From NCBI GenBank assembly GCA_028286665.1, contig JAQBRD010000003.1:1-55597 (forward strand): a stretch of 55,597 nucleotides of DNA. The letters are read 5' to 3'. The position numbers and the translations under genes are program-made. The stretch is from Candidatus Tayloriibacteriota bacterium. Its GTDB lineage: Bacteria > Patescibacteriota > Minisyncoccia > Phycocordibacterales > PALSA-1337. The notes beneath the pieces are model-generated. The model searched no databases. It had not been told where the DNA came from and was given only the letters and a program-made list of their open reading frames with translations. Position 1 is the stretch's first letter, and each line of letters starts with the position of its first letter. Below are positions 12,023 through 43,907 of the stretch, piece by piece.

Positions 12023-12529
12023 ATGAACGAGCAAGAAAAAGAGATCAAAAATCAAAATGGATTCGATGGCGTGCATGAGCTTCCTGGATCGGCTACTTTA
12101 TTTCAGGCTCGAAAGGGTGAAAAATACGGAATCTACTCATCTTCTAGAAAAGCGCTTGTCGTCCCTGTCGAGTTTGATGCGGTAAATCTTCAAGTCGATA
12201 AAGACAGGGTTTCAGTTGAGAAGGCAGGTAAGCACGGCATGTATTCTATCTCGCACGAGAAAATTGTCGTGCCGATTGAATGGGATTTTGTGAGTACCTC
12301 ACCAAATCCTACTAACACTGACACCTACGAAGTAGTAAATGGGAAGAAGCATGGTGTGTATTCACGTTTGGAATCGAAGCTCATCATGCCTATCGAATAT
12401 GACACCATCATAGAATTGGTCGGTTCAGACCACTTCAAGGATTCTCCTTACAATGGACAATACCGCGTACAGCTTGAAGAAAAAATTGGTAGGTTTGATC
12501 CAAAGACGCAGTCTGTAACTTGGAATTAA
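12023..12529 (+). CDS. WG-repeat-like protein
   Basis: Three repeats of type GEKYGIYSSSRKALVVPVEFDAV / GKHGMYSISHEKIVVPIEWDFV / GKKHGVYSRLESKLIMPIEYDTI. Confidence 0.7.
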   Translation: MNEQEKEIKNQNGFDGVHELPGSATLFQARKGEKYGIYSSSRKALVVPVEFDAVNLQVDKDRVSVEKAGKHGMYSISHEKIVVPIEWDFVSTSPNPTNTDTYEVVNGKKHGVYSRLESKLIMPIEYDTIIELVGSDHFKDSPYNGQYRVQLEEKIGRFDPKTQSVTWN

Positions 12530-12820
12530 TCTGAATCGTCAGATTCTTTCTCTATAACTTATCAATGACCGAGGACGGCTTTTTTCACCATCACGAATTT
12601 TCAACTGCCATTTCATAATATGCCATATGATCCGAGATTAGTCGGGTTAAGTGACAAATAGCTATATGTAGCTAGGCGTCTCGTGCGCGATAACCTAGCT
12701 CTAATTGGCGGAGTGAGATTCGGTCACAGGTATTTTTCTACTGAAAAATCCCGCGACCCCGCCTCGCTCGCCTACGCGAGCTCCGGCTTTCTCATCTACG
12801 CTCTGCTTCACGCAGAAATG

Positions 12821-12852
12821 AAAAAAAGAACTGCAGAAGCAGTTCTTTTTTC
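12821..12852. terminator. Bidirectional intrinsic terminator
   Basis: AAAAAAAGAACTGC AGAA GCAGTTCTTTTTT. Confidence 0.8.
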
Positions 12853-12858
12853 ATTTTG

Positions 12859-12945
12859 CGGAGAGAGCGGGATTCGAACCCGCGATGCCCTTTCGGACAT
12901 TCTACGGTTCCGGGGTAGCCCATTCGACCGCTCTGGCATCTCTCC
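12859..12945 (-). tRNA. tRNA-Ser(GGA), type II with long variable arm
   Basis: Revcomp GGAGAGATGCCAGAGCGGTCGAATGGGCTACCCCGGAACCGTAGAATGTCCGAAAGGGCATCGCGGGTTCGAATCCCGCTCTCTCCG: acceptor, variable and T arms pair; anticodon loop CCGGAAC. Confidence 0.85.
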
Positions 12946-13011
12946 ATCGACCACGATAGTAACACATAACAACCTCATAGGAAAACTAAAAAATATATTT
13001 TTTGTTTTTCC

Positions 13012-14034
13012 CTACCAACCTCCGCTCGCACCGCCTCCCCCCGAGCTTCCCCCGCCGAATCCTCCGAATCCGCCTCCGCTCGAGCCGCCAAAGCCTCCCG
13101 ATCCCCCGAAGCCTCCGCCGCCGATCCACCACGGCGGACGCCGGCCGCTCGTCATGGAGCTTGCGAACGCTTTCGAGACGATGTAATCGAAGATGAGGCC
13201 GATGATGGCGAAGGCAGCAATGGCAATGATGCCGATGAAAAGGAATCCATATATGAAGCCGACGACAACTCCGGCGATCGCGCCGAGGACGCCGCCGAGC
13301 CACCAGGATTTCGATCTGCCGAGGATGCTCGTGCACCAGATGAGGGCGAAGACGATAAAGAATATCCAGTTTCCGCTTCCGCCTCGCGAAGAGGATTCGC
13401 CACCCGAACGGTTGTCAGGATTTCCAGCACCACTTATATATTCAGGATCCTTCGATATCGTTCCGATGATGACATCTGTCGCACCGTCGACGCCTTCATA
13501 ATAATGACCGGCTTTGAACGCAGGTGTCATGACATTACGGATGATGCTGCTCGCGACAGAGTCCGTGATGACCGGCTCGAGGCCGTAGCCGACTTCGATG
13601 CGGATCTTGCGATCATCCCGGGATATGAGGATGAGCAGGCCGTTGTCCTGCTGATTGGGTGTACCTAAAGCATTCGTGCCGACACTTTTGGCCGAGCCGA
13701 TTCCCCATTCCTGAAAAAGCTTCTCGCCGAAATTCTCCACGCTGTCGCCGCCAAGATCCTTCACCGTCGCGATCACGATCGCGTTGCCGGTCGTCTTTCC
13801 GAAATCGACGAGCTTCGTCGCGAGCGCGTCGCGTTCAGCCGAGGAAAACATTCCCGCGAAGTCGTTGACGAGACCGACCGGCTTGCCTGGGCTCTGGTAT
13901 GCATATGCCGGGGCCGCGCTGAATCCGCCGAACATGCCGAATGCGGCAAATACGGCAAATGCCGCCGCGAAGAGCGGCAGCATGAGCGCTGAAATGAAAA
14001 CGACCGCACCTTTTTTTGCGCGAATCGTTTTCAT
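13012..14034 (-). CDS. TPM domain protein (YgcG-like) with Gly/Ser-rich C-terminus
   Basis: VGLVNDFAGMFSSAERDALATKL...RKIRIEVGYGLEPVITD...; Gly-rich GGFGGSGGFGGSSGGGFGG tail. Confidence 0.88.
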   Translation of the reverse strand: MKTIRAKKGAVVFISALMLPLFAAAFAVFAAFGMFGGFSAAPAYAYQSPGKPVGLVNDFAGMFSSAERDALATKLVDFGKTTGNAIVIATVKDLGGDSVENFGEKLFQEWGIGSAKSVGTNALGTPNQQDNGLLILISRDDRKIRIEVGYGLEPVITDSVASSIIRNVMTPAFKAGHYYEGVDGATDVIIGTISKDPEYISGAGNPDNRSGGESSSRGGSGNWIFFIVFALIWCTSILGRSKSWWLGGVLGAIAGVVVGFIYGFLFIGIIAIAAFAIIGLIFDYIVSKAFASSMTSGRRPPWWIGGGGFGGSGGFGGSSGGGFGGFGGGSSGGGGASGGW

Positions 14035-29641: not shown

Positions 29642-31228
29642 ATGAACAAAAAACCACAGGTAGCTCTTATCGTGCTCGACGGCTGGGGCCATCGCGAAGA
29701 CACGACGCACAATGCTGTCGCGGCGGCGAAGACGCCGTATTTCGATTCGATCTGGAAGCAGTATCCGCATTCACTCCTCGAAGCATCCGGCCTCGCCGTC
29801 GGACTCCCTGAAGGCCAGATGGGCAATAGCGAGATCGGCCACACCACCATCGGCGCCGGCAAGGTGATCGATACCGACCTCGTGCGCATCGCGAAAGCCA
29901 TCAAGGATGGCGAATTCAAGACCAACCCGGCTTTCGTGAAGCTTTTCAATCATGTGAAGAAATATGATTCGACGCTCCATGTGAAAGGCTTGCTCAGCAC
30001 CGGCGGCGTCCATAGCCACGAAGAGCATCTGTTCGCATTCCTCAAAGCCGTGAAGGAAATCGGCATCAAGAAAGTCGTCATCCACGCATTCACTGACGGC
30101 CGAGATACGCCGCCGCAAAGCGCAGCTGATTCTCTTGAGAAGCTCGAGCACCTCATCGCGGAACTCGGCATCGGAAAGATCGCTACCGCCTCAGGCCGCT
30201 TCTATGCAATGGACCGCGACAACAATTGGGATCGCCTCGCAAAAGCAGAGGCAGCGATGTTCGAATGCAAGGCCAATGCCTGCACGCCGAAGAAGCCATC
30301 TGAATTCCTCCGCGAACTCTACAAAAATGGAACAAAGGATGAGACGCTCGACCCGATCGTCTTTCTCGATGAGAACGGCAAAGGATACAAAGTCGAGCAG
30401 AATGACGGCGTCTTCTTCTTCAATTTCCGCAAGGACCGAACGCGCATGCTCTCGAAGAAGCTCGCCGATATGGCGAAGGCGAAGAATCTCGCATACGTGA
30501 CCCTCACAGAATATGATCCCGAGATCATCGCCGACGTTGCCTTCCCCACCATCGCAATCGAGACGACGCTTGCGAAAGAAGTCGCCGAAGCGAACCTCAC
30601 CCAGGCGCACATTGCTGAAACCGAGAAATTTCCGCACGCGACGTATTTCCTCAATGGAGGAACTGACAAGCCGCACAAAGGAGAGAAGCATATCATGCTC
30701 GACAGCCACAAAGTTCCAGACGCGAAGCGCGCGCCGCATGTGAAGAAGGACGCCGACGGGACTTTCGCATTCACCCATGACATGGCCCCGATGATGCGCG
30801 CAGAAGCGATCGCAGACAAGGCGATCGAGGAGGTCAATGCTGGCACCGATCTCATTTTCATCAATTTCGCAAATCCAGACATGGTCGGGCACACGGCGAA
30901 TGTTCCCGCGATCATCGAGGCCGTCGAGGAAACCGATGCGCAGCTCAAGCGCGTCTGCGATGCGATGCTCGCGCGAGCGAAGGCTAGCGGCGCTGAAGAA
31001 TTCATCTTCGTGACTGCAGACCACGGCAATGCCGAAGTGAATATTGATCCGATGACCGGCGAGAGACATACATCTCACACGATCAGCCCGGTTCCAGCCA
31101 TTCTCATACAGTCGAATGTGATGCACGCGAAGCTTGCGCATGGAGGCCTCGCCGACATCACCCCGACGATTCTGAAAATCCTCGGCGTACCGCAGCCGAA
31201 ATCGATGACAGGCAAATCGCTTATCTAA
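29642..31228 (+). CDS. gpmI: 2,3-bisphosphoglycerate-independent phosphoglycerate mutase
   Basis: LIVLDGWGHRE, GNSEIGHTTIGAGKVI, HAFTDGRDTPP, NFANPDMVGHT, TADHGNAE. Confidence 0.97.
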   Translation: MNKKPQVALIVLDGWGHREDTTHNAVAAAKTPYFDSIWKQYPHSLLEASGLAVGLPEGQMGNSEIGHTTIGAGKVIDTDLVRIAKAIKDGEFKTNPAFVKLFNHVKKYDSTLHVKGLLSTGGVHSHEEHLFAFLKAVKEIGIKKVVIHAFTDGRDTPPQSAADSLEKLEHLIAELGIGKIATASGRFYAMDRDNNWDRLAKAEAAMFECKANACTPKKPSEFLRELYKNGTKDETLDPIVFLDENGKGYKVEQNDGVFFFNFRKDRTRMLSKKLADMAKAKNLAYVTLTEYDPEIIADVAFPTIAIETTLAKEVAEANLTQAHIAETEKFPHATYFLNGGTDKPHKGEKHIMLDSHKVPDAKRAPHVKKDADGTFAFTHDMAPMMRAEAIADKAIEEVNAGTDLIFINFANPDMVGHTANVPAIIEAVEETDAQLKRVCDAMLARAKASGAEEFIFVTADHGNAEVNIDPMTGERHTSHTISPVPAILIQSNVMHAKLAHGGLADITPTILKILGVPQPKSMTGKSLI

Positions 31229-32511
31229 TCTCCCTTTTCTTCAAGCCTCTTTTCAAGCCTCAGGATCGCCGCCATATATTTCACGAACAGCACCATGAGC
31301 GTCGTCCACAAGACGCCGATCGCATAGCCTGCGACGACATCGGAAAGCCAATGCACATTGAGGTAGAGGCGGCTCAGCGGTACGAGAAAGCTGATGATGA
31401 CCGCGGCAGCGATCGCTGCTTCCCTCGCGTGATGGTTCTTGATATGGATGAAGCAGACATAAATGAGCGCCACGCAGCCGAAGGCAGCCATTCCCGCATG
31501 AAGGCTCGGGAAGCTGAAGTCGCTGTAGAGCGTAGCGCCGCCCTCAGGCCGCACGCGCATGACGAGCTCCTTGATGAAGCCGATCCAGCCCATCGTGCCG
31601 CCGAGCGACAGGATGAGGAATGCGAAGTCTTTGTAGTTTCGTTTCAAAAAATAAATGCCTGTCGCGATAATGCCGAGCAAGGCGAACGTCACCGGACTCA
31701 GCGCATTCGTGATGAATGACATGATTCCTGTCATGAGCGAGCCTGCAGGAGCAGCATGAGCCGACATCCACACGTTCACTGCGAGATCGAGCTGCTCCAT
31801 GAACGAGTGGGCGCTGACCGTATCCTGGATCATCTTGAAGCTCACGTACAGCGAGACGAGCATGAGTCCGAGTGTGAAAAGATCGTACTTGACGAAGACA
31901 TGCCATCGCTTATTGATGAAGCTATATGCCCAGATCATGATGAGCGCGATGATGAAGCCTGCGAGGACGAACTTGCCCATGACTCCTGCAGCAGCATGGT
32001 ATCCGGCGCCGAAGACATACCCGATGAGCACCGAGCTCACTGCCCAGCTCACGCCGGCGATGATATCGTACAGCCAGAACTTTCCGGCGTGTCCGCCGCT
32101 TGCGCCGACGATGAATGGCATGAGCGTTCTCGTGAGCGGATTGAATCGTCCGAAAATGATTGCCTTGCCGGTATGCTTCGCGACGAGCTGCTTCGCTTTT
32201 TCAATATGGCTCTCACGGATCGAAAGGTACCTGCTTACGCGTTCGAGAAAACCGAATCCGTATTTCCTGCCGAGGCAGAACGCTATCCCATCGCCGAGTA
32301 TGGCGCCGAATCCTCCGAGCATGAGTACTGCAGGCAGGCTCAGCACTCCGATTTTGGCCATGAATCCCGCGAGGATGATGATGGTATGCCCAGGAACGAC
32401 CGAACCGATGAGCGGCAAGCCTTCGAGGATGGACGTAATAAAAATGACCGCATATCCGCCATGAGCGACGATGCTTTCGAGATGATGGATGAACGGCGCG
32501 AAGAGATGCAT
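31225..32511 (-). CDS. DedA family / PAP2 phosphatase fusion membrane protein
   Basis: N-terminal DedA: GSVVPGHTIIILAGFMA...FGRFNPLTRTLMPFIVG; C-terminal PAP2: KELVMRVRP...FSFPSLHAGMA...SRLYLNVHWLSDVVAGYAIG. Confidence 0.9.
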   Translation of the reverse strand: MHLFAPFIHHLESIVAHGGYAVIFITSILEGLPLIGSVVPGHTIIILAGFMAKIGVLSLPAVLMLGGFGAILGDGIAFCLGRKYGFGFLERVSRYLSIRESHIEKAKQLVAKHTGKAIIFGRFNPLTRTLMPFIVGASGGHAGKFWLYDIIAGVSWAVSSVLIGYVFGAGYHAAAGVMGKFVLAGFIIALIMIWAYSFINKRWHVFVKYDLFTLGLMLVSLYVSFKMIQDTVSAHSFMEQLDLAVNVWMSAHAAPAGSLMTGIMSFITNALSPVTFALLGIIATGIYFLKRNYKDFAFLILSLGGTMGWIGFIKELVMRVRPEGGATLYSDFSFPSLHAGMAAFGCVALIYVCFIHIKNHHAREAAIAAAVIISFLVPLSRLYLNVHWLSDVVAGYAIGVLWTTLMVLFVKYMAAILRLEKRLEEKGD

Positions 32512-32555
32512 GGAGGTAGTATAGCAAATATTCAAGCTCGTCGAATGAATGCATA

Positions 32556-33144
32556 TAAAAAGGAGAGGCTCTGTCTTGGAAGACAGAGCCCTTTGTGACT
32601 GATTACTCGATTTGTGCTATTTCGGTTCCTGTGAAGTTACATACCCTCACAGGAACCTAGAGAAGAAGAACTGCATCATGGTTTACCTTCAGGATTTTTT
32701 CCAGTAATTTCTTCTCGAAATTACTGATAAATCCGGAAAGCTAGTTTGTTTTTAATCTATCAATGCGGTATTGCTGGTTACTCGGCCCATTTGGCCTTAA
32801 CCCCTTTTTCTTCTTTTCATAGTGCAAACAATCTATGATCAGAAGGATGAGCTACTCTTATCCTCGCGATGTCTAGCCTAGTTTAACTAGTGCTAGTTAC
32901 ATCTGCCTTCATGGTGTATCGACGTTGATTCATCGGTCAATCGATACCTTTGTGACTATTTCACTGCTGAAGGTGATTTGTTAGTCGCTGAGCCTGCCAC
33001 TCCTTGGCTTGGCTATCTTTCCCTATTAGTGCGTTTGGCTTCATAAGCCGTTGAGTTCCGCTAACCTGAGGAACCTGCACTCTGTGATTATATCTTCCGA
33101 AGCCGATTGGCTTCTACGTAACGTCTTGTCGTTTACTCTGTTAC
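32556..33144 (-). ncRNA. Candidate large, highly structured non-coding RNA (no known family recognised with certainty)
   Basis: No credible ORF; minus-strand promoter TTGACA-16-TATGAT at 33151-33178; terminal hairpin GGCTCTGTCTT-CC-AAGACAGAGCC + TCTCCTTTTT at 32556-32590; 10+ internal hairpins including 11-bp and 10-bp perfect stems. Confidence 0.8.
32567..32590 (-). terminator. Intrinsic terminator of the ncRNA
   Basis: 11-bp perfect stem GGCTCTGTCTT/AAGACAGAGCC, downstream T-run. Confidence 0.8.
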
Positions 33145-33150
33145 ATGTGT

Positions 33151-33178
33151 ATCATAGCATATACATGCAATTTGTCAA
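33151..33178 (-). promoter_or_regulatory. sigma70-type promoter driving the ncRNA
   Basis: TTGACA aattgcatgtatatgc TATGAT, extended -10 TGCTATGAT, near-palindrome CATGTGTAT/ATATACATG. Confidence 0.7.
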
Positions 33179-33280
33179 GTACATTTACCATATGCAAAAT
33201 AAAATCTTTATGAATTTCTTATCTGAAACTGCAGCAGAAAAGTTCGACGAGTTGCGGCATGAGACGGTATACTGCTCTAC

Positions 33281-33952
33281 ATGAAATTACTGATCATCGA
33301 GGATGATATCGCCGCCGCCGCATTCATGAAAACAAGCTTCGAGTCCGCTTCGCATGTCGTCGATCTCGCGCACAATGGCACCGACGGATCCTATGCCGCG
33401 CGAATCAATCCATATGACGTGATCATCCTCGACTTCTCGATGCCGAAGAAAAACGGACTGAAAGTCTGCGAAGAGATCCGTTCCGCCGGCAAGACCGTGC
33501 CGATACTCTTCCTTTCAGTCATCGGCGATACTGCGAAGAAAGTCGATGCGCTCGAGAAGGGCGCCGACGATTATATGACCAAGCCATTCTCATTCGACGA
33601 GCTGCATGCCCGAGTGCGAGCGCTCGCGCGCAGGCCGCATAAGATCGAGACATCCATACTTACCGCCGGAGATCTGAGCCTCAATACCGAGCGTCAGGTA
33701 GCAGTCCGCGGAGGCACCGCAATATATCTGACAAGAAAGGAATATACCCTGCTCGAGTATCTGATGCGGAATCAGGGCACGATATTATCGCGTGGTATGA
33801 TCATGGAGCATGTCTGGAACGCGGACAGCGATCCTTTTTCAAATACCATCGAAGCGCACATCCTCAATCTTCGGAAGAAGGTGAATATCGGACGGAGAAA
33901 GGATTTCATCCGGAATGTTCCAGGACGAGGATACATGATCGCTGTCGAATAG
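33281..33952 (+). CDS. OmpR/PhoB-family response regulator
   Basis: LLIIEDDIAAAAFM, DVIILDFSMPKKNG, K at TKPFSFDELHARVRAL, C-terminal winged helix EAHILNLRKKV...VPGRGYMI. Confidence 0.96.
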   Translation: MKLLIIEDDIAAAAFMKTSFESASHVVDLAHNGTDGSYAARINPYDVIILDFSMPKKNGLKVCEEIRSAGKTVPILFLSVIGDTAKKVDALEKGADDYMTKPFSFDELHARVRALARRPHKIETSILTAGDLSLNTERQVAVRGGTAIYLTRKEYTLLEYLMRNQGTILSRGMIMEHVWNADSDPFSNTIEAHILNLRKKVNIGRRKDFIRNVPGRGYMIAVE

Positions 33953-34019: not shown

Positions 34020-34166
34020 ATGAAGGTCGACGTGATCAACGATCATATAAACAAACATACCCAAATGAGCATTCTCATCAAACAACTATTGCGTGACGCC
34101 GAGCAGCGGAAGAAGGCTTCCGTAGCAGCGCATTCGGAAAGCGACTTTGCCCCATGGAACGGCTAG
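34020..34166 (+). CDS. Possible 48-aa small protein between RR and HK
   Basis: MKVDVINDHINKHTQMSILIKQLLRDAEQRKKASVAAHSESDFAPWNG*; TAGAAT box 10 nt upstream; overlaps HK start by 13 nt. Confidence 0.4.
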   Translation: MKVDVINDHINKHTQMSILIKQLLRDAEQRKKASVAAHSESDFAPWNG

Positions 34167-35611
34167 AGTCTGCAACATCACAAATGGCAGCCATAACGCG
34201 CTTCGTGCAAAGGCGCGTTATCGCGCTGATACGTCCGAAATCAACTGACGAGGATACGCATCGCGAAGAATTGATTCTCAATACCATTCTTCTCACCTCG
34301 ATCGCACTGCTGCTTGTGCTCGATGCGACCATACTCTACAATCTCCCCGCTTTCGGAGCCGCATACCAGGGCGTGCATTTCATTCCGTTCACGATCATCC
34401 TGGCCATATTCGCAAGCTTGTTCGTCCTATCGAGGCGCGGAAAAGTCCGCCTGGCATCCTATCTCCTCATCAGCTTCTATATAATCGGCACCATATACTG
34501 CGGTTATGAATGGGGCGCAAGCCTGCCTGCGACGCTTCTCACGACGACGCTCGTCATCATCACTTCAAGCATCCTTATCGGAACCCGATGCGGCATGATC
34601 GTCTCGGTCGCAATGGTGTGCATTCTTTCCTATCTCGGTTTCCACGAATACAAAGTGCTCGGCGTCCAAGCATGGAAATACACCACCATCAGCACGACAG
34701 ACATCATCACCTATTCGGGAATCTTCTTCTTCATCACGCTCCTTTCATGGCTCTCAAACAGAGAAATCGAGAACTCGTTGAAACGTGCCCGGAAATCAGA
34801 GGGAGAATTGAGAACGGAACGCGACAATCTTGAGATGACCGTCACTGAGCGGACGGAGTCCCTGCGCAAGATGCAGCTTGATCAGATGGTCTACCTGTCG
34901 AGATCCGCTGAATTCGGAGAACTTTCCCGAGGATTATTCCACGATCTCATGACTCCCCTTGTTTCGATTTCGCTCGGCATAGATGCGCTCGGAAAGACCA
35001 GCTCGCCAGAAGTGAGGACTCTCCGCGAATCCCTCAGCAAGACCATCGAAGCATCCAACAGAATGGGAGAGTTCATGTCGACAGTACGGAAGACGATGCG
35101 GTCCTCAGAGTCTTCCCTGCAACCAGCGACCGCACCTCAGCTCGAGAAAACCTGCGATCTGAAGGAGTCTCTCGAATACATCCTTCAGATTCTTGGCTAT
35201 AAGATGCGGAATGCAGACGTGAAAGTAATCCATGAATATATCGGATTCAACGAAAATCCGATCATATGCAAAGATCATGTATTGATAGAGAGAATCCTCC
35301 TCAACCTCATATCGAATGCGATCGACTCATATGCGAGCTTGCCCGAGCTCGATGAAAAGAAAATCGAAGTCTGCCTGAGCAAATCAGAGGAATGCATCGA
35401 GATACAGGTCTCAGATCATGGCTGCGGCATCCCGAAGCAAAATATGAAACAGATATTCAATCCTTTCTTCACGACAAAATCGAATGAGAGAGGAAGCGGA
35501 CTCGGACTTACTATCGTGAAAACGATCGCAGAAAAAGATCTCGGCGGAACCGTCGGAATAAAGAGCGAAGCAGGAAAAGGCACCGATATACAGATAACGT
35601 TTCCTCATTAA
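34154..35611 (+). CDS. Multi-TM sensor histidine kinase
   Basis: Six to seven TM helices, GLFHDLMTPLVSIS phosphoacceptor region, NLISNAIDSY N-box, DHGCGIP and GSGLGLTIVK G-boxes. Confidence 0.94.
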   Translation: MERLESATSQMAAITRFVQRRVIALIRPKSTDEDTHREELILNTILLTSIALLLVLDATILYNLPAFGAAYQGVHFIPFTIILAIFASLFVLSRRGKVRLASYLLISFYIIGTIYCGYEWGASLPATLLTTTLVIITSSILIGTRCGMIVSVAMVCILSYLGFHEYKVLGVQAWKYTTISTTDIITYSGIFFFITLLSWLSNREIENSLKRARKSEGELRTERDNLEMTVTERTESLRKMQLDQMVYLSRSAEFGELSRGLFHDLMTPLVSISLGIDALGKTSSPEVRTLRESLSKTIEASNRMGEFMSTVRKTMRSSESSLQPATAPQLEKTCDLKESLEYILQILGYKMRNADVKVIHEYIGFNENPIICKDHVLIERILLNLISNAIDSYASLPELDEKKIEVCLSKSEECIEIQVSDHGCGIPKQNMKQIFNPFFTTKSNERGSGLGLTIVKTIAEKDLGGTVGIKSEAGKGTDIQITFPH

Positions 35612-35623
35612 TCAAATCTCAAT

Positions 35624-37510
35624 ATGCACACCAAACAACTCGACCATATGATCGAGCAGCTTTCGACGCACCTCGACTCCATGCATTCCAAAGACAAGCT
35701 GCTGCAAAGCAGAAACATATTCATCCCTGCGCTTATTCTGCTTGCGCTTCATTCAGGAAAAGAACATAGGCGAATCCAGAATATCTGCGACACGCTCATC
35801 GCTCATATTCTTGAAAATAAAAATGATGCCTGGACATGGAATTACTGGCCGAGATCGACAGGAAAGAAAACCTCAGCATCAGAACGGCCATCCTACCCCG
35901 ACGACATGGATGACACGAGCTGCGCGATCGCAGCTATCGCGCTCTGGCGGCCTGAAATGCTCTCAGGAGAAGCATTTGCGAATATAACGAAAGCTCTCAT
36001 CGCCTGCGAAACGCAGCCTGGCGGCCCTTATTTCACCTGGATAGGCGGCATGAGAGCCTCGCAGACTCCTGACATAGGCGTGAATGCGAACATCTCTTTC
36101 ATGCTTTCCCTCATAGGAGTATCGATGCCCGAACTCACAGAGTCAATCGATCATGAATTGCGCTTGGAGCAGCCCGCATCACAATTCTATTCGAACAGAA
36201 TGATGATCTTGTATTTCATTTCGCGCAATTATTCGGGAAAGGAGAAATCCCGGCTGATAGAAAAAATATGCACTGAAGGCAAGTCCAATCTCATGGATGC
36301 AGCTCTCGCAGCGAGCTCGCTCATCCGGCTTGATGCTCCTGATGGAATCATTTCTGAACACATCGCCAAGCTCGGCTCGTTCACGGTGTCGATCGGAAAA
36401 AGTGAGGCTCACCCGATGTATATCGAAAAGATCGCAAACGGAATCATCCAATATGCGACATCTGAAGCCTTCACCGCTGCAGCTGCCTTGGAGGCGTTGC
36501 TTCTCTGCAGATTGCGCCTCCAGGAGAAAACTGAGAAAGGACGCCGCGACATCGAAGCGGCAGCCGAGAATCAGATCCAATTGGCAATCATCGAAAAACT
36601 GCATTCTGAGACAAAGAGCCTCTCTTCCGAAATGAAAGCAGCATTCGACGCGCATCTTGAAAAATTCAGATCAGCAAGCCACTGGAACGAGATCGCGCTC
36701 CTGCCCTATTCGCTCGTTCGCAATTTTCCAGATGCAGATGCTGTCGCGGCAGTTGTCGGAGCTGTCGGCGTCCTTGGCTGGATCGCATACACCATCGACG
36801 ACATGAGCATGGATGAACCGATGTCCGGTCATGGGAAAGAAATTCCTCTCTCGCGTTTCATCCATAGGAAGATCGAGCATCTGATCAGGGCGGAATTGCT
36901 GCCAGCGGCAGCAGAAGGCACTCGATCAAGAATAGAAAGATACATCGGCAAAGTCTTCATCGATCTCGACAATGCGCATCATGCCGAAATCCTCGGCAAA
37001 AAAGTATCAATGACCGAAAAGTCATTCGGGCACGCGCTCCCGGTCATGCTCATCGCGCATGTATTCTCAAAAAATATCCGAAACGGGGATGCCGAGCAGA
37101 GCGTCTGCGAAAATCTGCTGAAGATGCTGGAGATGAGCTGCTCGCACTACATACTCGCCCGGCAGCTGTCAGACGACGCGCACGATTGGCAGGAAGACAT
37201 GAATTCAGGCCGGCTTACCGACGTAACTGAAATGATGCAGAGAGCCGCGAACGCTCCTATGACTGCATTCGCGCCGGAAAATGCAGAGAAGAGCATGCGT
37301 GACATATTCTGGAATGAATGCGCTCTTCGGATAGCTGACAGGATCCTCGAGCACGCCATGAATGCGAAACAGCTCGCCGAGAAATGCAGTATTCTCGACG
37401 AGCGTTTCGATATGAGTTTCCTGATCCGATGCATCTCGCGATATGAGGCTATCGGGAGATCGATGACTGAAGATATTCGGAAGACGAAGGAATTCCTTGC
37501 TGCGTACTGA
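35624..37510 (+). CDS. Candidate bifunctional terpene cyclase/prenyl synthase-like protein
   Basis: YPDDMDDTSCAIAAIALW (DxDD-type, class II cyclase-like), GGPYFTW; C-terminal GWIAYTIDDMSMDE and ARQLSDDAHDWQEDMNSGR (class I Asp-rich motif-like); all-helical composition. Confidence 0.6.
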   Translation: MHTKQLDHMIEQLSTHLDSMHSKDKLLQSRNIFIPALILLALHSGKEHRRIQNICDTLIAHILENKNDAWTWNYWPRSTGKKTSASERPSYPDDMDDTSCAIAAIALWRPEMLSGEAFANITKALIACETQPGGPYFTWIGGMRASQTPDIGVNANISFMLSLIGVSMPELTESIDHELRLEQPASQFYSNRMMILYFISRNYSGKEKSRLIEKICTEGKSNLMDAALAASSLIRLDAPDGIISEHIAKLGSFTVSIGKSEAHPMYIEKIANGIIQYATSEAFTAAAALEALLLCRLRLQEKTEKGRRDIEAAAENQIQLAIIEKLHSETKSLSSEMKAAFDAHLEKFRSASHWNEIALLPYSLVRNFPDADAVAAVVGAVGVLGWIAYTIDDMSMDEPMSGHGKEIPLSRFIHRKIEHLIRAELLPAAAEGTRSRIERYIGKVFIDLDNAHHAEILGKKVSMTEKSFGHALPVMLIAHVFSKNIRNGDAEQSVCENLLKMLEMSCSHYILARQLSDDAHDWQEDMNSGRLTDVTEMMQRAANAPMTAFAPENAEKSMRDIFWNECALRIADRILEHAMNAKQLAEKCSILDERFDMSFLIRCISRYEAIGRSMTEDIRKTKEFLAAY

Positions 37511-40667: not shown

Positions 40668-43600
40668 ATGAAACGATACCTGATACTCTTCGCATTTGTC
40701 CTGTTCTCCGTCGCATACGCGCCATCCTCCAATGCTGAATTCTTCGCGAACAGCATCCCCCTCCCAGGAACGATCACCGTCAATAGCAACGGCGTGAACG
40801 CGATCGCAGTCGGGACCTCGACGATATATATCGGCGGGTCTTTCACCTATGCCGGTCCTTATTCAGGAAATTTCGTTTCAATATCGCCATCGACTGGAAC
40901 AGCTACGACGAGCTCATATGACAAAGTCCACGGCATCGTCAATGCGAGCATCCCGGACGGTCGAGGCGGGTGGTATGTAATCGGCGGATTCATAAAGGTC
41001 GCCTCATCATCCCGCAACGATCTCGCGCATATACTCCCGGACGGAACCGTGGATCCGAACTTCAATCCGAGCCTCGACAGCGAGAGCAACGCCCTCGCTC
41101 TCTCTTCGGATGGCTCCATACTCTATATCGGAGGATTTTTCAGCACAGTCGGCAGCACGACGAGGAATAGGCTTGCAGCCGTAAATACGTCCGATGGTTC
41201 AGTCGTAGCATCCTTCAATCCGAATATGAGCGGCGGAGTCACCGCACTTGCTCTCTCATCGGATAATTCGATACTGTATGCCGGCGGTTTCTTCACGACA
41301 GTCGGCGGCGTGACGTACAACAGGCTGGCAGCAATCAATACTGCAGATGGCACGGCGATCTCTGCTTTCAATCCGAATCTCAACAGTACCGTGAGCGCGC
41401 TTGCGCTTTCGTCCGACGGATCGAAGCTCTATGCGGGAGGATCGTTCACCACGGTCGGCGTAACGACGCGCAATCGGCTTGCAGGAATCACGACCTCGAA
41501 TGGCGCGCTCATCTCGGGCTTCAACCCGAACATGGGCAGCACTGTCAACGCTCTCGCGCTTTCATCTGACAATACGAAGATATATGCCGGCGGTTCCTTC
41601 ACGACAGTCGGCGGCGCGACGTACAACAGGCTGGCGGCAATCAATACTGCAGATGGCACGGCGATCTCTGCTTTCAATCCGAACATGGACGGCACGGTAA
41701 CAGCCCTGAAACTTTCGTCTGACGATTCGAAGGTGTTTGCTGGAGGATCCTTCGCCAATATGGGTTCTGCTACATCAAGCGGCCTCGCTGCGATACAGAC
41801 GTCCGATGGCACCGCAGTTTCCGGCTTCAGTCCAAACGTAGTAGGAAATATCATGACGATCTCCATGTCTGCGGACGGGTCTGCGATGGGCATCGGCGGA
41901 ACATACGTCTCCGTAGGCGGCAGCGTCCGCAACAGGCTGGCGGCAGTCGATATAACCGGCAGCACCCTTTCTTCTTTCAATCCGAATCTCAACAATACCG
42001 TCAACGCGCTTGCACTTTCATCCGACGGATCGAAACTCTATGTAGGAGGAACATTCACAGCGGTCGGCGGCACGACGCGCAATCGGCTTGCAGGAATCAC
42101 GACTTCCGACGGCGCAGTCATCTCAGGCTTCAATCCGAACGTAGGCAATACCGTCAATACCCTCAAGCTTTCTTCAGACGATGCGAAGATATACGCAGGA
42201 GGATTATTCACGACGGTCGGCGTAACGACGCGCAATCGGCTTGCAGGAATCACGACCTCGAATGGCGCGCTCATCTCGGGCTTCAACCCGAACATGAACA
42301 ACACAGTCAACTCTCTTGCGCTGTCATCCGACGATGCGATGATCTATGCGGGAGGAACATTTAGTACGGTGGGCGGCGTGACGTACAACAGGCTGGCGGG
42401 AATAAACGCATCGAACGGTACCGCAAGCTCGACATTCAACCCAAATATGGGCAACACAGTCAATAGCATCGCCCTCTCTTCTGACAATACAAAACTCTAT
42501 GTAGGAGGAACATTCACCACGGTCGGCGGCGTGACGTACAACAGGCTGGCGGGAATCAATACGGCGACTGGGGCTGCGATTTCGACTTTCAATCCGAACC
42601 TGAATGTCAACGTCAACGGAATTGCCCTCTCCCCCGATGGTTCGAAACTCTATGCAGGAGGACTGTTCACGACTGTCGGCGGCGCGACATACAATCGGCT
42701 TGCAGGAATTACGACTTCCAACGGCGCAGTCATCTCAACATTCAATCCCAGCATGGAAAGCACGGTGAACACCCTCACGATTTCTTCTGACGGAAAAAAG
42801 CTCTATGCCGGGGGATTATTCGCCTACTCGGATCTCAATAGTGCAGCGAGGAATTTCGCCATATTCTCGGGAGGAGGAGTGACGGTGAGCACGACGACTG
42901 CAGCCGCGACGGAAGGAGCGGCCGGAGACAGCTATACCGTCGTCCTTGATGCAGAACCGACGGCGAATGTGACCGTCACGATAACGCCTGATCCGAGCAA
43001 TCTCTCGACATCGCCTTCAAGCCTCGCCTTTACGGCTTCGAATTGGAATATCCCTCAAACAGTGATAATTACTGCCATTTCGAATAACAGCATCGAAGGC
43101 ACGCACACTGCTTCGATCAGCCATTCTATTTCAAGTTCCGATTCCTCATACAGCGGAATTTCGGTCACCCCCATCACAATAACGATCACGGACAGCACGC
43201 CGCACAATCCGACAGTCACCGCGAGCGCTGCGGCCTCGACTACAGAATCAGGAACAACGCTCTCAGGCGCGATAACAGCCGACGGCGTCGCATCATCTAC
43301 CGAACGAGGCTTCGTATACGGCAAAACCACCTCGTATGGCGCGACAAGCACGCAAAGCGGGATATTCGGCATCGGTTCGTTCACCGCCGATATCGCAGGG
43401 CTCAGCAGCGGCAGCCTCTATCATTTTCAGGCATATGCGACAAACGCTTCCGGAACGGCATACAGCAGCGACCTCACCCTCACGACAGTACCTGCTGCAA
43501 ATCAGCCCCAGGCTTACAAGACATCGTCTGCGCGCAGAGCCGCCAATCAGGAAGCTTCGGTCAGCACGAAAATCCTCATCGTAACCCAGACTCCGCCTGC

Positions 43601-43907
43601 ACCGAATGAAACCGCATCGAGCCCTGCCGGACAAGATATTGCTTCGCCAAAAACCCCCTCCGCTCAAGCATTCGCGAGGCCGCTCGCATATGGCAAGACT
43701 GGCAGCGACGTGAAGCAACTGCAGCAGTATCTCAATGCCAAAGGCTACGCACTGGCAGCATCAGGTCCTGGATCTGTCGGAAATGAGACGAACTTCTTCG
43801 GCCCGCGCACGCAGGCAGCGCTCCTGAAATTCCAGAAGGCAAACGGGATTTCCGCAACCGGATATTTCGGCCCGGTCACCAAGGCATTCGTCGGGAATTC
43901 GCGCTAA
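40668..43907 (+). CDS. Large surface protein: ~12 beta-propeller (delta-60-like) repeats, Calx-beta/Fn3-like domains, C-terminal PG_binding_1 domain
   Basis: Signal peptide; ~51-aa repeats [SG]FNPN(x)4-TVNALALSSDGSKLYAGGxFTTVGGxTYNRLAGINTxxGxxIS; C-terminal YGKTGSDVKQLQQYLNAKGY...FGPRTQAALLKFQKANGISATGYFGPVTKA. Confidence 0.93.
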   Translation: MKRYLILFAFVLFSVAYAPSSNAEFFANSIPLPGTITVNSNGVNAIAVGTSTIYIGGSFTYAGPYSGNFVSISPSTGTATTSSYDKVHGIVNASIPDGRGGWYVIGGFIKVASSSRNDLAHILPDGTVDPNFNPSLDSESNALALSSDGSILYIGGFFSTVGSTTRNRLAAVNTSDGSVVASFNPNMSGGVTALALSSDNSILYAGGFFTTVGGVTYNRLAAINTADGTAISAFNPNLNSTVSALALSSDGSKLYAGGSFTTVGVTTRNRLAGITTSNGALISGFNPNMGSTVNALALSSDNTKIYAGGSFTTVGGATYNRLAAINTADGTAISAFNPNMDGTVTALKLSSDDSKVFAGGSFANMGSATSSGLAAIQTSDGTAVSGFSPNVVGNIMTISMSADGSAMGIGGTYVSVGGSVRNRLAAVDITGSTLSSFNPNLNNTVNALALSSDGSKLYVGGTFTAVGGTTRNRLAGITTSDGAVISGFNPNVGNTVNTLKLSSDDAKIYAGGLFTTVGVTTRNRLAGITTSNGALISGFNPNMNNTVNSLALSSDDAMIYAGGTFSTVGGVTYNRLAGINASNGTASSTFNPNMGNTVNSIALSSDNTKLYVGGTFTTVGGVTYNRLAGINTATGAAISTFNPNLNVNVNGIALSPDGSKLYAGGLFTTVGGATYNRLAGITTSNGAVISTFNPSMESTVNTLTISSDGKKLYAGGLFAYSDLNSAARNFAIFSGGGVTVSTTTAAATEGAAGDSYTVVLDAEPTANVTVTITPDPSNLSTSPSSLAFTASNWNIPQTVIITAISNNSIEGTHTASISHSISSSDSSYSGISVTPITITITDSTPHNPTVTASAAASTTESGTTLSGAITADGVASSTERGFVYGKTTSYGATSTQSGIFGIGSFTADIAGLSSGSLYHFQAYATNASGTAYSSDLTLTTVPAANQPQAYKTSSARRAANQEASVSTKILIVTQTPPAPNETASSPAGQDIASPKTPSAQAFARPLAYGKTGSDVKQLQQYLNAKGYALAASGPGSVGNETNFFGPRTQAALLKFQKANGISATGYFGPVTKAFVGNSR
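41054..42840 (+). repeat. Tandem ~153-bp coding repeats (12 copies)
   Basis: Period ~51 codons; includes an 84-bp perfect identity between ~41454-41537 and ~42216-42299. Confidence 0.85.

Follow-up and report, generated by a model that had tools for sequence, protein, structure and literature searches.

We identified, in a 55,597-nt stretch of DNA (the window), a candidate gene for a large structured noncoding RNA of about 589 nt, which we read, with a probability of about 0.62, as an independent trans-acting RNA gene of a rare new family outside Rfam. The candidate gene lies in a genome of less than one megabase, between a divergent response regulator gene and a gene for a DedA-PAP2 fusion membrane protein, which are separated here by 745 bp. 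An earlier note on this DNA, made from the sequence alone, had pointed to a protein-free region of about 590 nt at this place, and this region is real. Between the start of the regulator (33281) and that of DedA-PAP2 (32535 or 32511), no credible open reading frame was found. The only long frame in the gap, of 77 amino acids (33051-33284, plus strand), overlaps the regulator start and seems to be spurious, since relatives do not have it in their short gap. If so, the region is the largest protein-free stretch of the window, as the earlier note had it; if the frame is counted as coding, however, 12527-13014 is slightly longer. Farther along the plus strand, an open reading frame of 628 amino acids without a Pfam match (35624-37510) adjoins the two-component genes, and a protein of 1,079 amino acids (40668-43907) contains many near-identical repeats of the ALSSDGSKLYAGGSFTTVGG type and a C terminus that, judged by eye, is peptidoglycan-binding-like.

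Both ends of the gene are marked by predicted transcription signals, and the RNA would be transcribed from its own promoter to its own terminator. The TTGACA-16-TATGAT element described earlier is present on the minus strand (hexamers at 33178-33173 and 33156-33151, with a 16-nt spacer) together with an extended -10 motif. This near-consensus, sigma-70-like promoter matches 11 of 12 hexamer positions, has the top score in the region, and places the expected transcription start at about 33144. At the other end, a terminator hairpin (32591-32566) has 11 pairs by the count of the tool and is followed by CTCC and five T. A physical loop of 4 to 6 nt leaves a stem of about 9 to 11 bp. The features of the locus are listed below together with their counterparts in G054, a genome of the same order and another family.

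Features of the RNA locus and its neighbors (positions in the window)
Feature	Position	Strand	Remarks
Candidate ncRNA gene	32556..33144	-	~589 nt; promoter, terminator, fold, no Rfam family, G054 homologue
Promoter TTGACA-N16-TATGAT, extended -10 TGC	33151..33178	-	Same spacing and TGC in G054
5' hairpin GAAGCC-AATC-GGCTTC	33099..33114	-	G054 equivalent GGAAGC-GTTTG-GCTTCC
Conserved core	33028..33081	-	Stem A enclosing stem B, loop TCAGGTTAGC; 28/30 in G054
Stem A AGTGC/GCACT	33081-33077 with 33032-33028	-	
Stem B GGTTCC/GGAACT	33075-33070 with 33059-33054	-	
PK1 loop arm GTTAG	33061..33065	-	Putative pseudoknot PK1
Second, partly conserved block CTAACAAATCACC (G054: CTGACAAATCGCC)	32972..32984	-	Holds PK1 partner CTAAC (32984-32980)
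Putative PK2, CCTTCA (32973-32968) / TGAAGG (32911-32906)	32906..32973	-	Read in the sequence
Hairpin arm AUCAGUAAUUUC	32717..32728	-	Perfect complement of response-regulator mRNA 33283-33294 (+)
Strong 3' hairpin GGTTCCTGTGA/TCACAGGAACC	32624..32657	-	
Intrinsic terminator and U run	32557..32591	-	
VTT(DedA)-PAP2 fusion membrane protein	31225..32535	-	Flanking gene; alternative start 32511, possibly leaderless
Response regulator (Response_reg and Trans_reg_C)	33281..33952	+	Flanking gene, divergent from RNA gene
Histidine kinase	34154-35611		After the response regulator

The RNA is predicted to fold much more stably than shuffled sequences: its folding energy of -188.7 kcal/mol compares with an average of -137.4 over the shuffles (z = -7.0), and none of 100 shuffles equalled it. 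Much of the excess sits in the 3' hairpins and the terminator, yet z is still -4.1 when only the first 410 nt are folded. Since the reverse complement folds equally well (z = -7.5), folding cannot fix the strand, which is set instead by the promoter, the terminator, and the homologue in G054. All of the local hairpins listed in the earlier note are found in the sequence, although many of them are single-sequence folds whose conservation is unsupported, and the GACTA/TAGTC hairpin would compete with GUUAG/CUAAC, a better supported pairing described below. Both arms of its proposed pseudoknot, CCTTCA/TGAAGG, are likewise in place; the pairing is still putative, and G054 has CCTC/GAGG at a comparable position. 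In addition, the RNA contains an exact 11-nt direct repeat, AGTCACAAAGG on the RNA strand (32590-32600 and 32947-32957), one copy of which immediately precedes the terminator, and a tiny open reading frame, ATGATGCAGTTCTTCTTCTCTAGGTTCCTGTGA (MMQFFFSRFL; 32647-32679, minus strand), preceded by GAAGG, from which a peptide is possible though unsupported.

A search of Rfam 15 returned no family for the RNA, either at the gathering threshold or at E values of up to 1. The best hit, Ref70, was at chance level (E = 1.3; 19.7 bits versus 115 needed), and the G054 copy likewise matched nothing. This search covered ROOL, GOLLD, OLE, HEARO, and raiA, and no covariance model matched. The likeness to ROOL, GOLLD, or OLE proposed earlier is therefore one of size and complexity only; membership in these families is unsupported by any model match, and the locus shows no phage or tRNA-island context. 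The earlier note had seen no signatures of tmRNA or RNase P RNA; RF00023 and RF00010 did not match here, and the genome encodes its tmRNA at C17:11347-11777 and its RNase P RNA at C13:24314-24690. Besides, our search of the literature on Patescibacteria/CPR found no report of such an RNA.

The RNA is present in a single copy in its own genome, and a BLAST search of 61 genomes gave one hit outside it, in the metagenome bin AlinenLipids_bin-9080 (G054, locus L011), with 28 of 30 nucleotides identical (E = 5e-6 for that genome). The order of elements in G054 matches that of the RNA gene: a promoter, TTGACA-16-TATGCT with TGC before the -10 hexamer (L002 1411-1438), is followed by a GGAAGC/GCTTCC hairpin and then by the core, which lies about 60 nt from the expected start in both. 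The G054 RNA measures about 460 nt in all, up to a hairpin of high G+C content (CCCCGG..CCGGGG) with ATTTTCTTT behind it; this 3' end was read by eye, because the hairpin loop exceeds the limit of the terminator scan. It folds only slightly better than its shuffles (z = -1.7). The genes next to it are unrelated to those in the window, the next one lying several hundred nucleotides past the terminator-like hairpin, which suggests that the RNA has no fixed partner gene.

Within the core, the loop UCAGGUYAGC differs between the two sequences at a single position (U/C), and this difference is matched by A/G in the downstream block CURACAAAUCRCC. The putative pseudoknot PK1 would accordingly pair GTTAG with CTAAC here and GTCAG with CTGAC in G054, a compensatory change with p values of 0.012 (column shuffle) and 0.04 (looser unaligned null); as the pairing was chosen after the sequences had been seen, these values are support rather than proof. 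Stems A and B have the same sequence in both RNAs and thus give no covariation. Beyond the core, the next 150 nt show a weak, gapped similarity to G054 (p = 0.03), whereas over its full length the 3' part is not significantly similar to it (p = 0.28 and 0.35) and the remaining ~400 nt cannot be aligned. The look for homologues and covariation that the earlier note had suggested thus yielded one homologue and one compensatory pair, PK1, from two sequences only. A new RNA family with two known members is likely, although two sequences allow no formal covariation test and the family is accordingly not established.

We searched for further members with covariance models of the 5' domain. No credible third member was found in 398 genomes of the order, 357 of the class, 290 of the phylum, and 54 of the family, or among 386 relatives of G054 (these samples overlap). 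The model built from the window RNA and G054 (R1) scores its own two source sequences at 110 and 83 bits. The weak model hits L022-L024 and L026-L029 were discarded as chance matches, since they all fall inside long open frames, and so was L064, a stretch of AT-rich sequence in which the core loop is missing. A scan of the GTDB species collection for the exact motif gave 16 loci; the flanking core is present at the G054 locus but missing from the remaining 15, which are no more than chance would give. In viral contigs the exact core was absent and a looser pattern gave three spurious matches, while phages gave a single 35-nt match by chance, close to the terminator, and plasmids gave none.

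It is probable that the lineage to which the window belongs acquired the RNA gene at this site, between the regulator and DedA-PAP2. In seven family relatives the response regulator (56 to 67% identical) and DedA-PAP2 are divergent neighbors only about 10 to 110 bp apart, and the RNA is carried by 1 of the 54 family genomes, so that a gain in this lineage would be simpler than a loss in all of the others. The DedA(VTT)-PAP2 fusion itself is full length in most family relatives. An empty site was also sought in G134, the sister of G054, in which the neighbor protein was not found; that genome is only 73% complete. In G+C content the two RNAs (43% in the window and 45% in G054) resemble each other more than either resembles its surroundings (51% and 40%, respectively), a pattern compatible with transfer as well as with structural constraint.

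The position of the RNA raises the question of whether it acts in cis, as a long 5' untranslated region of DedA-PAP2 with a regulated terminator at its end (a riboswitch or attenuator). The two lie on the same strand, and the terminator ends only about 20 to 55 nt ahead of the DedA-PAP2 start. However, DedA-PAP2 has a TGC-TATACT element of its own just before the ATG at 32511, so close that a leaderless mRNA is likely; its counterparts in the seven relatives have no room for such a leader; and the G054 RNA precedes neither a DedA gene nor any other close gene. The two RNAs do not sit ahead of the same kind of gene, although with only two members this is a weak test. We consider a cis-acting leader unlikely. 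An antisense regulator, in which the arm AUCAGUAAUUUC would pair with the start-codon region of the response-regulator mRNA and block its translation, is in our view very unlikely. The perfect 12-nt complementarity takes in part of the start codon and codons 2 to 5, and no other gene start of the 48 in the window offers more than 9 nt, yet the arm sits in a stable hairpin of the nonconserved part of the RNA, and opening it would cost 15.5 kcal/mol against a duplex energy of -12.8 kcal/mol. Furthermore, the one G054 neighbor start tested has only a 6-nt match, and the find was made post hoc, 12-nt matches being expected by chance somewhere in 55 kb. The predicted pairing is only a lead.

It is also conceivable that the sequence is a passenger or decaying remnant of a mobile element, with structure but no function. 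The apparent gain at this site, the very patchy distribution, the G+C content below that of the window, and the weak fold of the G054 copy would all be in keeping with this. Nevertheless, 28 of 30 core nucleotides have been kept between families, and the promoter and hairpin have stayed at matching positions although the remaining sequence diverged, which argues for selection; moreover, the RNA is single copy, no adjacent mobile genes were seen, and phages, plasmids, and viral contigs gave no match. A functionless passenger is thus quite unlikely.

An independent trans-acting RNA accounts best for these observations. Its 5' third may form a compact pseudoknotted core, in which stems A and B present a GUYAG loop to a downstream CURAC, and this core would be the working or partner-binding part, whereas the poorly conserved 3' two-thirds would be a fast-evolving scaffold. 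That the chief role of the core is to bind a conserved cellular protein or RNA is, in our view, less likely than not; it may instead act as a ribozyme, a sensor, or an oligomer-forming RNA. We give about even odds to a reading in which the two RNAs are the first known of a new and rare class of trans-acting RNAs in bacteria with small genomes, large and pseudoknotted, whose 5' core is conserved while the 3' scaffold evolves freely, and which spreads as a self-contained promoter-to-terminator cassette. Large structured bacterial RNAs without an assigned function are few, and several known ones form unexpected assemblies. If our reading is true, one more family of this kind, unrelated to the others, is encoded in a sub-megabase genome between a promoter and a terminator of its own. 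Its expression and structure would clearly deserve study, and the 30-nt core could serve as a probe for more members in metagenomes.

Among known RNAs, tmRNA and RNase P RNA are also large, pseudoknotted, and standalone, but both are encoded elsewhere in this genome, on other contigs. OLE RNA, which is known in Gram-positive extremophiles and has a size near 600 nt, shares with the RNA its size, standalone state, and complex structure, whereas the RNA here has no Rfam match and its host has a sub-megabase genome. ROOL, of which the solved env-120 RNA has 659 nt (PMC12286853), is likewise a standalone RNA of similar size with many hairpins and proposed pseudoknots; it differs in its Rfam match and in its phage and tRNA-island setting. 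Indeed, phages and prophages are the usual carriers of ROOL and GOLLD, frequently in the vicinity of tRNA islands, and ROOL, GOLLD, and OLE form homo-oligomeric RNA complexes (PMC12286853). The neighbors here are instead a two-component system and DedA-PAP2, and the nearest tRNAs are about 17 to 20 kb away. Many GOLLD RNAs exceed 800 nt, whereas the RNA here is shorter and has neither an Rfam match nor a phage or tRNA array beside it. Both are large and ornate with one end better conserved than the other, which in GOLLD is the 3' end (PMC12286853) and in the RNA described here the 5' end.
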